A DNA stretch of 64,000 nucleotides from Siphonodentalium dalli (Eukaryota > Mollusca > Scaphopoda > Gadilida > Siphonodentaliidae). Under the pieces are notes generated by a model, which was given only the letters and a program-made list of their open reading frames with translations, made no database searches and was not told the DNA's origin. Below, one piece after another: positions 29,007-43,299 of the stretch. Where the stretch lies: NCBI GenBank assembly GCA_032622095.1, contig CP136062.1, positions 9,513,710 to 9,577,709 on the forward strand, given 5' to 3'. Each line of letters begins with the position of its first letter. Positions within the stretch are counted from its first letter, which is position 1. The position numbers were made by a program, and so were the translations under genes.

Positions 29007-29992
29007 ATATACTCTAGTAGCTCATGGTGGTTTTGTATGCACTTGTATGTCCAGAGCAAAACTCTTCATGAATCCACTAATTGAAGGTACACGAACAATA
29101 TTTGGTTGGTGACACATTTCCCATTGAGGGCGAAATGGGTCAAATGGCCACGCCCTTTTTGCGCGAAGTACTACCACCCGCCGTGACTATATCTCCAGAA
29201 CCGTTTGACATAGGGGGCCGAGTGACCACTCAAAATGTGCGGAATGGTCACATTATGGGTGGTCAGTAATACATTTTTATATCCAAAAGTCAATGGTTTT
29301 TAAGATAATTGCCAAAAACCAAAAAAAATCCATTTTTAAGGGCCCAATTTTGGGGTTCAGCACTTTTATCTCAAAGCTATGGAATCCTATTAGGGCCACT
29401 TGCTAATGGCGCGTTCGGCGCACTTTTTGTCGCTTTCGGCGCGCGCCGAAACATACCCTAATGGCGCACTTTTTGTCGCTTCCGGCGCGCGCCATTAGGG
29501 AGTGGACCTAATAGTATGCCTAATGGCGCTTTCGGCGCGCGCCGAAAGCGACAAAAAGTGCGCCATTAGTAACGCGCCGAAAGCGACAAAAAGTGCGCCA
29601 TTAGTAACGCGCCGAAAGCGACAAAATGTGCGCCGTTACGGCGCACATTTTGTCGCTTTCGGTGCGCCGAAACATGCGCTAATATCGCACATTTTGTCGC
29701 TTTCGGCGCGAAAGCGACAAATAGTGCGCCGTAACGGCGCATATTTTGTCGCTTTCGGCGCTTTCGGCGCGTTACTAATGGCGCACTTTTTGTCGCTTTC
29801 GGCGCTTTCGGCGCATCGCGCCGAAAGCGCCATTAGCAAGTGGCCCTAATAGGATTCCATATAAAGCTGAGCCCAAAATTAAAATGTTATTGACCTATAT
29901 CCATCGGTGCCACATACAGGTATCATTTATAATATTTTCTGTACCATTATCGGATGGAATTGACCTTCAAGGAGCTCTTGACCCTGAAAATA
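29007..29992 (+). repeat. Dispersed repeat, copy A, split by a fold-back element
   Basis: Landmarks CTCTAGTAGCTCATGGTGGT, CAATATTTGGTTGGTGACAC, CCACCCGCCGTGACTATATC, TTTTATATCCAAAAGTCAAT, TTCAGCACTTTTATCTCAAA, then after the insert GAGCCCAAAATT, CTATATCCATCGGT and TTCAAGGAGCTCTTGACCCT. The same series lies in the other orientation at 32763-33332 without the insert. Confidence 0.9.
29379..29862. mobile_element. 484-bp fold-back element built from ten inverted GC-rich units
   Basis: The ends are perfect 34-bp inverted repeats (29379-29412 and 29827-29860; they begin ATGGAATCCTATTAGGGCCA). AAAGCT flanks the element at 29373-29378 and 29863-29868, and the sister repeat at 32959-32964 has a single AAAGCT, which is the empty site. 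The interior contains ten copies of GCGCACTTTTTGTCGCTTTC or close variants, some forward and some reversed, joined by CGGCGCGCGCCG palindromes. It is far richer in G+C than anything nearby. Frames across it are artefacts of the repeat. Family unknown. Confidence 0.95.
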
Positions 29993-32762
29993 AGGTTTTT
30001 GGATGGAATATATTGGTCGTAGAATGAAAAACAGACATTTTCCCAATAACAAAGATGTTGAGGAAATCATCAATTATAGGTTATTTGATCAGTAACCTAA
30101 AACTCCTACAAAAAGGTTACCTGGTGATATAATTTGAATGTAGTTCATCTTTTGTTATCTAGATTTCATGGCCTTTGGTGTGAGATGGCTGCCAAAATGG
30201 TTATAAATGGAATGACATATATCGCATTAGCAATATACTTGTAAATGAGTTCAATGTGTTATTTTCTTTAAACTTATGGGAGAACAGGGTGTTTTTATGG
30301 TATTCTAATGTTGAATTGAATTCTACTCAGCCCACCAGTAGGTTTAGTAAATGTTGAGTTACTACAATTTGATCAATCAGTATGATTCGGTAGTCCAGCA
30401 GGTTGTGTCTTTATCAGTCCCACATCAATTTTGATTGGCTGCATCACCATTTTGTATACAGGTTCTACAATTTCCCTAACATGTACATTATTTTAGAACA
30501 AACAATGGCTAGCCTGGCATGATTGCCTATATTTATATCCTGATATATGTATACGTACACGTAGATGTATATTTGCCCTAAATTGTTTCTGGTTCAAATT
30601 TGTCATAATAAGTCATAAGAAAGATGCAGTTGCAGTAATATTAAAATATATTGTCCTGTTCAAAACTAACAAATACATGTCCAGTTATAATAAATCCACA
30701 CATTAAAAATATAGGGCTTCCATAAATACAGAATATTTTCCAACTTGACAATCGTTCCTTGTGTTAATTCAACTGAGTGAGTTCATGTGAGGTTCATGGA
30801 AATTTATTTGGCAAGCTTGATTCTAAAGTGTCTAGCTTTATGGGCTTGAAATTCCGAATGCAATCCTGTTGCGTTGTGAGCTCAGAGTGAGTTAGAAGAA
30901 AAATACAAGCATCAGTTGATATGCAGATATAAATACATACAAATCTACATTCTGCAGGTAGCCATGCTATGCAATCCTCCCTCATGTATCAACTTATTGT
31001 GGATGTTGTAGATTTTGTAGATTTCTGGATGTTGTAATGCAATATAGATCTCCATTATAGTTGCACAAATTTATTTTTCATTTCGTCCCTTTAAATTGAC
31101 TTTTATGTATGTATATGTGCCACTCCAAAAATGTCAGTAAAAGTACTGTAAACCGGCACAGGAGATATATATATATACTTTACATGTCAAATATTGTGAA
31201 CCATGCAGGTACGGGTATGTGTGTCAGTCGCCTTATGTGTGTGATGTACATGCAGTAACTACATGTATATTCTAGTGAAATTTATGGTCTGCACTCTGCA
31301 GTATTTCAAAAACATGCTATGGCCATGCCTACATAAACATATGTACACTGATTCTAACACAATGATTGTCAGGTTATAATCTATGTTTGAGGAAAGTTAC
31401 TATGTATTTTTCATTTGTGTTGCATTTGTCAATATTAATGGGTCCCAGGAGCCCAGATGTTACTAGTGCAGAGCCCATTTAATTTTCATGAGACTGGTGG
31501 ACTTCATGTCTATACTCCTAAATAAACATGACTCTGAGTCTTATCAGACCAAGACGGTATTGTGTATGTTTTACTAGAATTATATTTAGAAAAGACTCAA
31601 CCATTATTTTTCCACTGCCCTATATATCACAATATATTCATTTGGCAGTATTCATCCCAAGTTTAGTGGTGATGCTAATAAATTTGGTATGATATTCAGG
31701 TAGTGCAAATCGATCTGAACAAATCGAGGATAAGCCACTATGAGTAGAAAACATTAAAAACATGTATATTGTGAAATATTTCAATAATAGGCGTGCTGGT
31801 TTTTACAAACTGGCCATAATTGAGATGACTATTCCTGTTGTTTACCAAACATCAGCGACACATTAAATATTTTTAAGTATATATGTTCTTGAATGTTTCA
31901 TACAGACACTGACTTTTGCACAAATTGCTCGGATTAGCCAAACAATGCAAAAATAACCAACTTTAGATAAAATGATGGTACTTAACAGAATCGCTTTGAC
32001 CTACAAACATCATAGCAATCCAGCAGTACCCATCAGCATAATATAAAATTAGCAGGACCACTTAACCTGGGGTGGTATTGAAAATGAAAATATCTTTAAA
32101 ATGGTAAGTTATGAGGGCTATTAGCTATTATGAAGAATTATGTTAGTGAAATTATAGACCCTCGTCTTCTCCAACCTGCACTTAGTGCTGCAACTATCAT
32201 GGCCAATCAAAACTAATTCCATCATTTCCTAAAACTGTTTGTGAGATGAGGTGTCCTTTTGGAAGAATTGATTACTTCTGAAATATATACTGGTACATAT
32301 GGTCATCTCTCATCTGATTACAACATGTTTTACTATGCCCAGATGCAATACCCATTTTAGGATCGCAACATGTGGCTGCTGCATGAAGCAAACAGTTGGT
32401 CATTCCATTTAGTAAAAGTGTTTAGCATGTTTCATATCTTGGTCACTTAAATCAGATCAGCTGTTAAATGTTGATAACAAATTTTGAAAACCTGTTTTGT
32501 TCAATCTGTACATTTCTGTTGATTAGAACACACTTGTTACCTGATTTTTGGTAAAGCACACCAGTTTCCAAGGCATGTTCAGTCGGGAAGAGCTCATGTT
32601 GTGTGTCGGGGTAAACACATCCTCAGCAGCAATTTCCAGCTAATCCCATTGTGTGTGGTCAATTGTGCTCTTAAGTCGATCAGAGAATTCGGATAGTTCT
32701 TTAAAAAGTGTCATACATATGCTGTGGCCTTGGTGGTATTGTATAATTGTGGTGCGTACCAT
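29993..32762. other. No gene recognised
   Basis: About 2.8 kb of AT-rich DNA with no frame above 63 codons and no obvious tandem or inverted repeats. It could be intron or intergenic. Confidence 0.4.
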
Positions 32763-33332
32763 GTTGAAATCGGTTTTTGGCAATTATCTTAAAAACCATT
32801 GACTTTTGGATATGAAAATGTATTACTGACCCCCCATAATGTGGATTTTCAGGGTCAAGAGCTCCTTGAAGGTCAATCCCATCTGATAATGGTACAGAAA
32901 TTATACCTATATGTGGTACCGATGGATATAGATCAATAAAATTCGAATTGGGGGCTCAGCTTTGAGATAAAAGTGCTGAACCCAAAATTGGGCCCTTAAA
33001 AATGGATTGTTTTTGGTTTTTGGCAATTATCTTAAAAACCATTGACTTTTGGATATGAAAATGTATTACTGACTCCCCATAATGTGGCCATTCCGCACAT
33101 TTTGAGTGGTCACACGACCCCCTATATCCAACGGTTCTGGAGATATAGTCACGGCGGGTGGTAGTACTTCGCGCAAAAAGGGGCGTGGCCATTTGACCCA
33201 TTTCGCCCTCAATGGGAAATGTGTCACCAACCAAATATTGTTCGAGAACCTTCAATTAGTGGATTCATGAAGAGTTTTGCTCTGGCCATACAAGTGCATA
33301 CAAAACCACCATGAGCTACTAGAGTAATAGGC
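32763..33332 (-). repeat. Dispersed repeat, copy B (carries the empty site)
   Basis: Reverse complement of 29007-29992 without the fold-back element. In addition, about 100 bp (GGCAATTATCTTAAAAACCA through CCCCATAATGTGG) occurs twice, at 32778-32845 and 33020-33088, so this copy has an internal duplication at its end. Confidence 0.9.
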
Positions 33333-33371: not shown

Positions 33372-33515
33372 ATTTTTTTCTTCTGATTCTTGCAAATATT
33401 TACTTGTTTTCACATTATTTACAAACATAGAAACTGTTCTGTCCATTCAACAATGGAGGATGAGTACATAATATGTGCTTTAATTTATGGGAGGCCCTTT
33501 TCACATTTATTAATT

Positions 33516-33633
33516 ATTTGCGCTTAAGCGCAAATATTTGTGCTTAAGCGTAAATCATTTGCGCTTAAGCGCAAATATGTGTCCATCAATTTATTTGCAC
33601 TCAAGCGCAAATCGTTTGCGCTTAAGCGCAAAT
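33516..33633. repeat. Array of five 20-bp palindromes
   Basis: Units ATTTGCGCTTAAGCGCAAAT at 33516, 33536 (two changes, both symmetric), 33557, 33593 (one arm changed) and 33614. Each is its own reverse complement. The left flank CACATTTATTAATTATTTGC is nearly the same as the left flank of the array at 42763. Confidence 0.95.
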
Positions 33634-33886
33634 ACCTAACGCTCCCTAACATCCCTCTGATGTGAATGATTGAGTCCATCTCATATTATATTATCATGGG
33701 CCCATAGTAGTAGCCCCATACAGACTGGAAAGTGGAAGGGAAAAAAATCCATATGTATATCACCATCTCTGTCCCGGGTGTCCCAAGAATTGCAACCTCA
33801 CTCCCAGAGATCTAGTATATTTTATTAAAGGGACATCTCCTGCACAGATATATACCATTTCCATGGCCATAAATAGGGAATTAGGG
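33634..33886. other. Short spacer
   Basis: No feature seen between the palindrome array and the TIR element. Confidence 0.35.
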
Positions 33887-36927: not shown

Positions 36928-36993
36928 GCCACGAAATAACTAATTCGTGGCCACGAAATAACTAATTCATGGCCACGAAATAACTAATCGTGA
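36928..36993. repeat. Array of TTCGTGGCCACGAA palindromes
   Basis: GCCACGAAATAACTAATTCG is repeated with a period of about 25 bp, three times, each centred on TGGCCA. The same unit forms the array at 41862-42138. Confidence 0.9.
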
Positions 36994-41765: not shown

Positions 41766-41861
41766 ACTAATGAATATTCAGTTTGTCTTGGAGCCACATA
41801 ACCCGAGTTTCCAAGTGTAACCAGTCGCCGTAAATGTATCTGGATATATGCAATGGTCAAT

Positions 41862-42175
41862 CAGTTATTTCGTGGCCACGAATTAGTATTTCATGGCCAC
41901 GAATTAGTTATTTCGTGGCCACGAATTGGTATTTCCTGGCTACGAATTAGTATTTCCTGTCCACGAAAATAATTATTTCGTGGCCACGAATCAATTATTT
42001 CGTGGCCACGAAATAAAAAAAAAAATTCCCATGTCCTAAACCAGCCACCGTACGTTACACCAATGCCATTGTCGGTCATATTCGGCACACAAATACTATT
42101 TCTTGGCCACGAATTAGTTATTTCGTGGCCACGAAATAAAAAAAAAATTCCCATGTCCTAAACCAGCCACCGTAG
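41862..42175. repeat. Array of TTTCGTGGCCACGAA palindromes with duplicated flank
   Basis: Six or seven units of TTATTTCGTGGCCACGAATT fill 41867-42012, some with decayed centres. The following phrase TTCCCATGTCCTAAACCAGC, preceded by an A run, appears at 42028 and again at 42150, with a further two palindromes between (42110-42138). The spacing of about 124 bp shows a tandem duplication of palindrome plus flank. Confidence 0.88.
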
Positions 42176-42762: not shown

Positions 42763-42824
42763 AATTGCGCTGAAGCGGAATTCAATTGCGCTGAAGCGCA
42801 ATCCAATTGCGCTGAAGCGCAATT
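42763..42824. repeat. Array of three AATTGCGCTGAAGCGCAATT near-palindromes
   Basis: Units at 42763, 42784 and 42805, period 21. The left flank CACATTTATTAATAATTGCG is almost identical to that of the array at 33516, so both belong to one family with different palindrome cores. Confidence 0.92.
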
Positions 42825-43299
42825 CAATTCAAGAAAATTAACTGGTATCGCATCGCAATTTGCTACCCAAATTTGGATAATAGCTATGCAATTTGGTATG
42901 AATTTTATATGATTTCAGAACAATGCTATCTAATTATGTCATTATGAGGTTATTTGCTAATCAAAATTTCAAAAGTAATTTGCTCCCTGAATAGGTGGGT
43001 TATTCCATTATCATAAATTCATATGCGATACCAACCAATTGCATGCGCTTCAGACTGCTTCCTTGCCTCTTATAATGAGTATTATGAGTTAACTAAAGAC
43101 AGTAAACAATCATGAGAGCACCCCTACCTTTTACATTAAGGGCTGAGAGGATAATATAAAATGATTTATGGACTGAGTCATTTTATATTCGTTTAAAACC
43201 ACATCTCAGAAAATTCTTTAGAAGTCTTCAGTCACATACAGAAGGAATAGAGGCAAGGAGACTAAGTTTCCCCTGCCGCACCACATAATAGCGTTCCCT
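42825..43299. other. No feature recognised
   Basis: AT-rich spacer. Confidence 0.35.

Follow-up and report, generated by a model that had tools for sequence, protein, structure and literature searches.

A block made largely of inverted repeats interrupts a dispersed repeat in the 64-kb stretch of Siphonodentalium dalli DNA analysed here (64,000 bp, hereafter the window). Is this block an inserted mobile element, and if so, what moved it? Copies of it are very numerous in the 2.2-billion-base genome. Our analysis suggests, with a probability of roughly three in four, that it is a non-autonomous fold-back (MITE-like) element moved in trans by a transposase of the IS3EU/GingerRoot type, a membership that we infer from its sequence.

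Structure of the element and of its target site

The element, which begins with TATGGA and ends with TCCATA, was placed at positions 29378–29861 (484 bp) by its self-match and its many genomic relatives. Its terminal inverted repeats (TIRs) are perfect over 35 bp, the left one at 29378–29412 on the forward strand and the right one, which pairs with it in sequence, at 29827–29861 on the reverse strand. Self-comparison of the window extended this pairing to 44 bp at 98%. The first-pass annotation had described a 484-bp block with perfect TIRs, which we retain with its position corrected to these coordinates and with TIRs of 35 bp rather than 34. A degenerate TIR copy (TAGGCATACTATTAGGTCCACTCCCTAATGGCGC) was aligned inside the element at about 29489–29522 on the reverse strand, with repeat pairs of 85% and 84%. 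The window as a whole has a G+C content of 0.376 and a CpG observed/expected ratio of 0.75, compared with 0.55 and 1.89 in the element; its base composition, earlier called extreme for an AT-rich window, is therefore clearly raised but not extreme.

Inside the element, ten copies of a 26-bp unit, GGCGCACTTTTTGTCGCTTTCGGCGC, run in the order >><<<>><>>. By core match and unit alignment, units 1 (29417–29442) and 2 (29463–29488) lie on the forward strand, units 3 (29539–29564), 4 (29574–29599) and 5 (29609–29634) on the reverse strand, units 6 (29640–29665) and 7 (29684–29709) on the forward strand, unit 8 (29705–29730), which overlaps unit 7 by 5 bp, on the reverse strand, and units 9 (29736–29761) and 10 (29780–29805) on the forward strand. 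Allowing three mismatches, the 16-bp unit core had ten matches in the window, all within the element, compared with a mean of 0.25 in shuffled windows, and these matches account for the units in both orientations noted at first sight. The GGCGCGCGCC palindromes are also present (at most one mismatch), but at three places only, and therefore do not join all the units as had been thought. Repeat finding and the unit layout further revealed a tandem pair of identical 35-bp units (100%) at 29538–29607. The window copy has one unit more than the commonest layout, >><<>><>>, which was found in 11 of the 18 copies nearest to it (eight so oriented and three reversed; 19 copies by BLAST rank, minus L053, which has no end pair).

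Inverted repeats thus form most of the element and short repeats occur within it, which is the structure of the fold-back class. The predicted single-stranded DNA fold of 29379–29862 had an energy of −251.9 kcal/mol, compared with a mean of −104.9 for shuffled sequences (z = −31, 0 of 100 shuffles). This strong self-complementarity agrees with the fold-back character proposed earlier. Rfam and tRNA scans of the 64-kb window gave no match.

Other palindromic repeats were seen in the window. Tandem repeats of the TTTGCGCTTAAGCGCAAA type lie at 33515–33634 and 42763–42829, and are perhaps another fold-back-like family. Repeats of the TTATTTCGTGGCCACGAA type lie at 36928–36992 and 41859–42140; the stretch ttcccatgtcctaaaccagccaccgta follows the TTATTTCGTGGCCACGAA-type array that ends near 42012 and also the one that ends near 42139.

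The element splits a dispersed host repeat (29010–29991) into two parts, 29010–29377 and 29868–29991, which were recognised by their match to an inverted sister copy at 32845–33326 on the reverse strand (96% over 370 bp and 84% over 129 bp). In the sister the target is whole at 32959–32964, reading GCTTTG on the forward strand, and the empty site reported there by the first-pass annotation is thus real. Flank comparison gave a target site duplication (TSD) of CAAAGC at 29372–29377 and TAAAGC at 29862–29867, both on the forward strand and matching at five of six positions. The flanking duplication had been read as AAAGCT; it is present, but as these 6 bp, one base further left and with one mismatch.

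The uninterrupted sister (243 bp) was used as a query against the genome, with scoring limited to the best 40 of 1451 candidates. The uninterrupted junction was found in at least 41 genomic places, namely the sister and 40 others (covering 1–243 or 2–243 at 94–100% identity). Because the sister and the 40 other listed copies run through the junction intact, the element is an insertion rather than a decayed satellite, as first suggested. This shows that the uninterrupted form is the common form of the host repeat, and by inference the ancestral one. Compared with it, the window copy has gained the element and a second target copy, in which CAAAGC now reads TAAAGC. The 41 places give no frequency of filled sites, since they come from the best 40 of 1451 candidates and interrupted copies would have ranked lower.

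The host repeat (window 32762–33326 and 29010–29991) is itself abundant, with 1451 candidates and at least 41 full-length places at 94–100%. Often a second, incomplete copy of about 50 bp follows it directly, and the host repeat is perhaps itself a young mobile element.

Copies, duplications and array turnover in the genome

A genome search with a 34-mer from within the left TIR (at most three mismatches) found 1310 forward and 1314 reverse matches, 2,624 ends in all, while the reversed control gave none on either strand. Other copies therefore exist and, if most of these ends are paired, the copy number is on the order of 1,300. When the whole element served as the BLAST query, at least 203 matching stretches were found among the best 40 of 1924 candidates scored. 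No exact match to the 20-bp end was found in the viral contigs.

We then compared the flanks of 44 distinct adjacent end pairs. The loci that supplied them had been selected because they resembled the window copy or contained an exact end, irrespective of duplication. A 6-bp duplication was found in 30 of the 44 pairs (24 at 6/6 and 6 at 5/6), while the shifted control, at offsets of 1–7, gave it in 0 or 1 of 44. Flank identity was 0.777 at length 6 and 0.22–0.37 at the other lengths from 3 to 12. The other 14 pairs had at most four matching bases. They include false pairings, in which inner matches of L055, L062 and L077 carry 4–6 mismatches, the compound copies L054 and L057, and plain copies with no clear duplication, such as L008, L020, L035 and L078. 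In a set of 35 insertions preselected for at least five of six matching flank bases, 28 were perfect at 6 bp, and the other lengths between 3 and 10 gave no perfect case; the target preference in this selected set, both strands pooled, is weak and symmetric, approximately SWWWWS. The first-pass annotation had said that its reading would fail if there were no other copies, or none with duplications or an empty allele; the 2,624 ends, the 30 of 44 unselected pairs and the 41 listed uninterrupted places bear its reading out.

Two copies hold a nested insertion. In L061 (201–3004) and in L062 (201–1673), one family member lies within another and has its own duplication, CATTAG and ATATTT, respectively. 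These nested insertions show that the family has moved repeatedly.

The array also changes in place. The elements L009 (1501–1819, C1:7126553) and L011 (1501–1854, C1:7463784) have the same flanks and lie about 337 kb apart; they share 319 identical bases with no mismatch and one 35-bp gap, while their 400-bp flanks have 2 and 6 mismatches and 18 and 6 gap positions. We read them as probably one insertion in a duplicated stretch, in which the number of units changed later. The two differ by exactly one 35-bp unit, which shows that the array is able to gain or lose a unit in place. In a second pair with the same flanks, L020 and L023, the element differs by one mismatch and two gap positions.

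These results bear on whether the block could be a satellite or a palindromic array that multiplied through unequal exchange or replication, without transposition. Its interior is indeed a tandem and inverted array, and a gain or loss of one unit in place is seen. However, the ends are sharp, 6-bp duplications occur at many unrelated sites, insertions are nested, and the 41 listed places are uninterrupted. The duplications and the empty sites refute this as the sole explanation, and we consider it very improbable.

The first-pass annotation suggested recent movement. The TIRs of the window element are perfect, and in the 18 nearest copies the per-base difference across the outer 26 bp is 0.4%, a value biased towards youth because the sampled copies are those most like the window copy. 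In 34 aligned short copies, the mean column agreement was 0.975 in the interior and 0.979 and 0.988 in the two TIRs. Mismatch values of 0.4% in the TIRs and 5.2% in the interior would suggest much stronger conservation of the TIRs, a reading that we reject because the agreement in this alignment is nearly equal. The same comparison weakens the idea that the array itself does the work, whether it is transcribed into a hairpin, gives rise to small RNA or stalls replication as a cruciform, with transposition serving only to spread it. The very strong self-complementarity would suit such a role, and 20 of the 26 unit positions agree at 0.95 or more (168 units of the 18 copies, chosen at up to six substitutions); but youth explains this agreement as well, since the interior is about as uniform as the TIRs. 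We consider a working array very improbable.

Ends of the element and the search for a transposase

With its 484 bp, no recognised coding capacity, TIRs, a TSD and 2,624 ends in the genome, the element has the features of a MITE. Its longest stop-to-stop frame, 116 aa, falls within the unit array. Eight long copies (1.3–2.8 kb) were considered as coding candidates and rejected: their longest stop-to-stop frame was 112 aa, and the six frames searched, out of 82 of at least 70 aa, had no Pfam match at E ≤ 0.01. The long copies contain AT-richer filler; in the interiors of L016 and L059–L062, about 1 kb of non-coding filler is by eye largely common and is bordered by inverted ACAATTAAGTATGTGATCACCCCAGCAGGGGTGCCGG. 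The first impression that no transposase is visible is thus upheld, as none of the copies examined has a recognisable coding frame.

No full-length transposase-coding element with the same ends was found by pattern, profile and long-copy searches of the genome. Only six ends had TATGGAATCCTATTAG followed by four foreign bases at positions 21–24, a pattern that would miss many unrelated continuations. Two of these six loci were read: L079 has the duplication GTGTTT/GTGTTT, and L080 shows none. Both belong to the family but have a changed subterminal sequence, and they were rejected as the autonomous partner. The IS481 transposase profile NF033577 gave 67 matches, none above the cut-off, and this route was dropped because one of them, L081, has an H-H-C-C arrangement and, on inspection by eye, was taken for a Ty3/gypsy-type integrase.

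The integrase core profile PF24764, which we take to cover IS3EU, had 126 matches in the genome. Eighteen of them lie in frames of 294 aa (for example G000:C1:155756004-155756528 and C3:137765887-137766411), of which 17 have no stop within the matched region; several smaller groups occur besides. The 18 frames have close scores, eight sharing one E-value, which suggests that they are probably a recently spread or active family of integrase-type transposons. None of the 100 listed exact ends (all on C1, up to 223.7 Mb, where 16 PF24764 matches lie) was within 500 kb of a PF24764 match. The variant of TATGGAATCCTA with another base at position 13 (TATGGAATCCTAV) was found at 79 places, compared with 34 for the control. 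One of these places, C6:125807260, faces a PF24764 match at a distance of about 9.2 kb, against a chance expectation of 0.08 such pairs, and the next nearest place is 129 kb from a match. All copies seen with the ends of our element are non-coding, and none of the 126 PF24764 matches was tied to these ends.

The ends themselves point to a superfamily. In the passages of PMC10045372 on complete IS3EU families, the termini are always TA..TA and the TSD is usually 6 bp, and the corresponding passages of PMC12730594 give fungal IS3EU a 6-bp TSD, a TIR of more than 30 bp and the termini TAYGG..CCRTA. Our element likewise has TA..TA termini, and TATGG..CCATA at its two ends fits TAYGG..CCRTA; its TIR of 35 bp, perfect, exceeds the 30 bp of the fungal families, and the 6-bp TSD is found in 30 of 44 end pairs (5/6 in the window copy). 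The likeness to GingerRoot follows the description of that group in PMC10045372. The difference lies between the ends: IS3EU/GingerRoot elements encode an integrase-like DDE transposase without the HHCC motif, whereas the interior here consists of inverted units with no transposase recognised in the copies examined.

The non-autonomous fold-back could instead have been moved by an enzyme of another superfamily with a TSD of about 6 bp, such as Dada, hAT6, Polinton or one not yet described. Dada elements make duplications of about 6 bp. A 6-bp TSD is also given for Polinton and for hAT6 in the passages on these groups in PMC10045372 and PMC12730594, respectively, and no transposase was linked to our ends in the searches made. 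However, the joint occurrence of TATGG..CCATA, a TIR of more than 30 bp and a 6-bp TSD fits the IS3EU description in those passages, and we regard another superfamily as unlikely.

We therefore return to an IS3EU/GingerRoot-type enzyme, which is suggested by the TA..TA and TATGG..CCATA ends, the TIR of more than 30 bp and the 6-bp duplications, and which would act in trans, given the ends, the duplication and the absence of genes. A transposase from another element, most likely an integrase-like DDE transposase of this kind, would recognise the 35-bp ends, excise the element and paste it at a new site with 6-bp staggered cuts, giving the 6-bp duplication. This duplication is observed, and the cut-and-paste steps would follow established DDE transposition. 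The inverted 26-bp units are most likely putative subterminal transposase-binding sites and/or a by-product of hairpin-driven duplication. Their number can shift in a step of about 35 bp, as one case shows, probably by slippage or unequal exchange.

Relation to known fold-back elements

Each of the three features, fold-back structure, MITE build and IS3EU-type ends, is already known. Among the open-access titles and abstract openings listed, none describes an IS3EU fold-back. According to the passages of PMC4079207 and PMC3573991 on classification, fold-back elements are mostly placed in Mutator, with exceptions such as the P-type Galileo; Drosophila FB and sea-urchin elements are also named as fold-back transposons in PMC4079207.

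Tetris of Drosophila virilis resembles our element in its fold-back build and internal repeats, and no autonomous Tetris copy was found, as described in the Tetris passages of PMC4079207. In the same passages, however, Tetris has a TSD of 8–10 bp and is placed in Mutator, unlike the 6 bp and IS3EU-like ends here, and the interior of our element is occupied throughout by units of both orientations. Flank identity at 8, 9 and 10 bp was 0.301, 0.222 and 0.277 in the 44 pairs, and a perfect duplication at any of these lengths was present in 0 of the 35 insertions selected for a 6-bp match. Galileo, in the parts of PMC3573991 on its TIRs, is similar in that its TIRs are long, contain internal repeats and vary by complete tandem units; they are also reported to hold secondary transposase-binding sites. 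It differs in belonging to the P superfamily and in its tandem repeat of about 210 bp, compared with about 35 bp here. By analogy with Galileo and with the elements of PMC4079207, our units would have a putative role in extra transposase binding. Coral CMITEs are also MITEs with a conserved interior able to form tandem arrays, but they are related to piggyBac-like elements, as stated in PMC2872659.

Taken as a whole, the picture of an IS3EU-driven fold-back family in which the 26-bp units of the interior serve as extra binding sites, the array turns over by one 35-bp unit, and the fold-back form arose independently in this superfamily is offered tentatively, with more doubt than confidence. 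With an abundant family whose ends are IS3EU-like, the list of superfamilies that contain fold-back elements would grow. The many natural variants of this family in unit number could be used to test whether transposition increases when subterminal units are repeated. The one-unit difference at the duplicated locus shows that such an array can grow or shrink in place, which may be a first step towards satellites.
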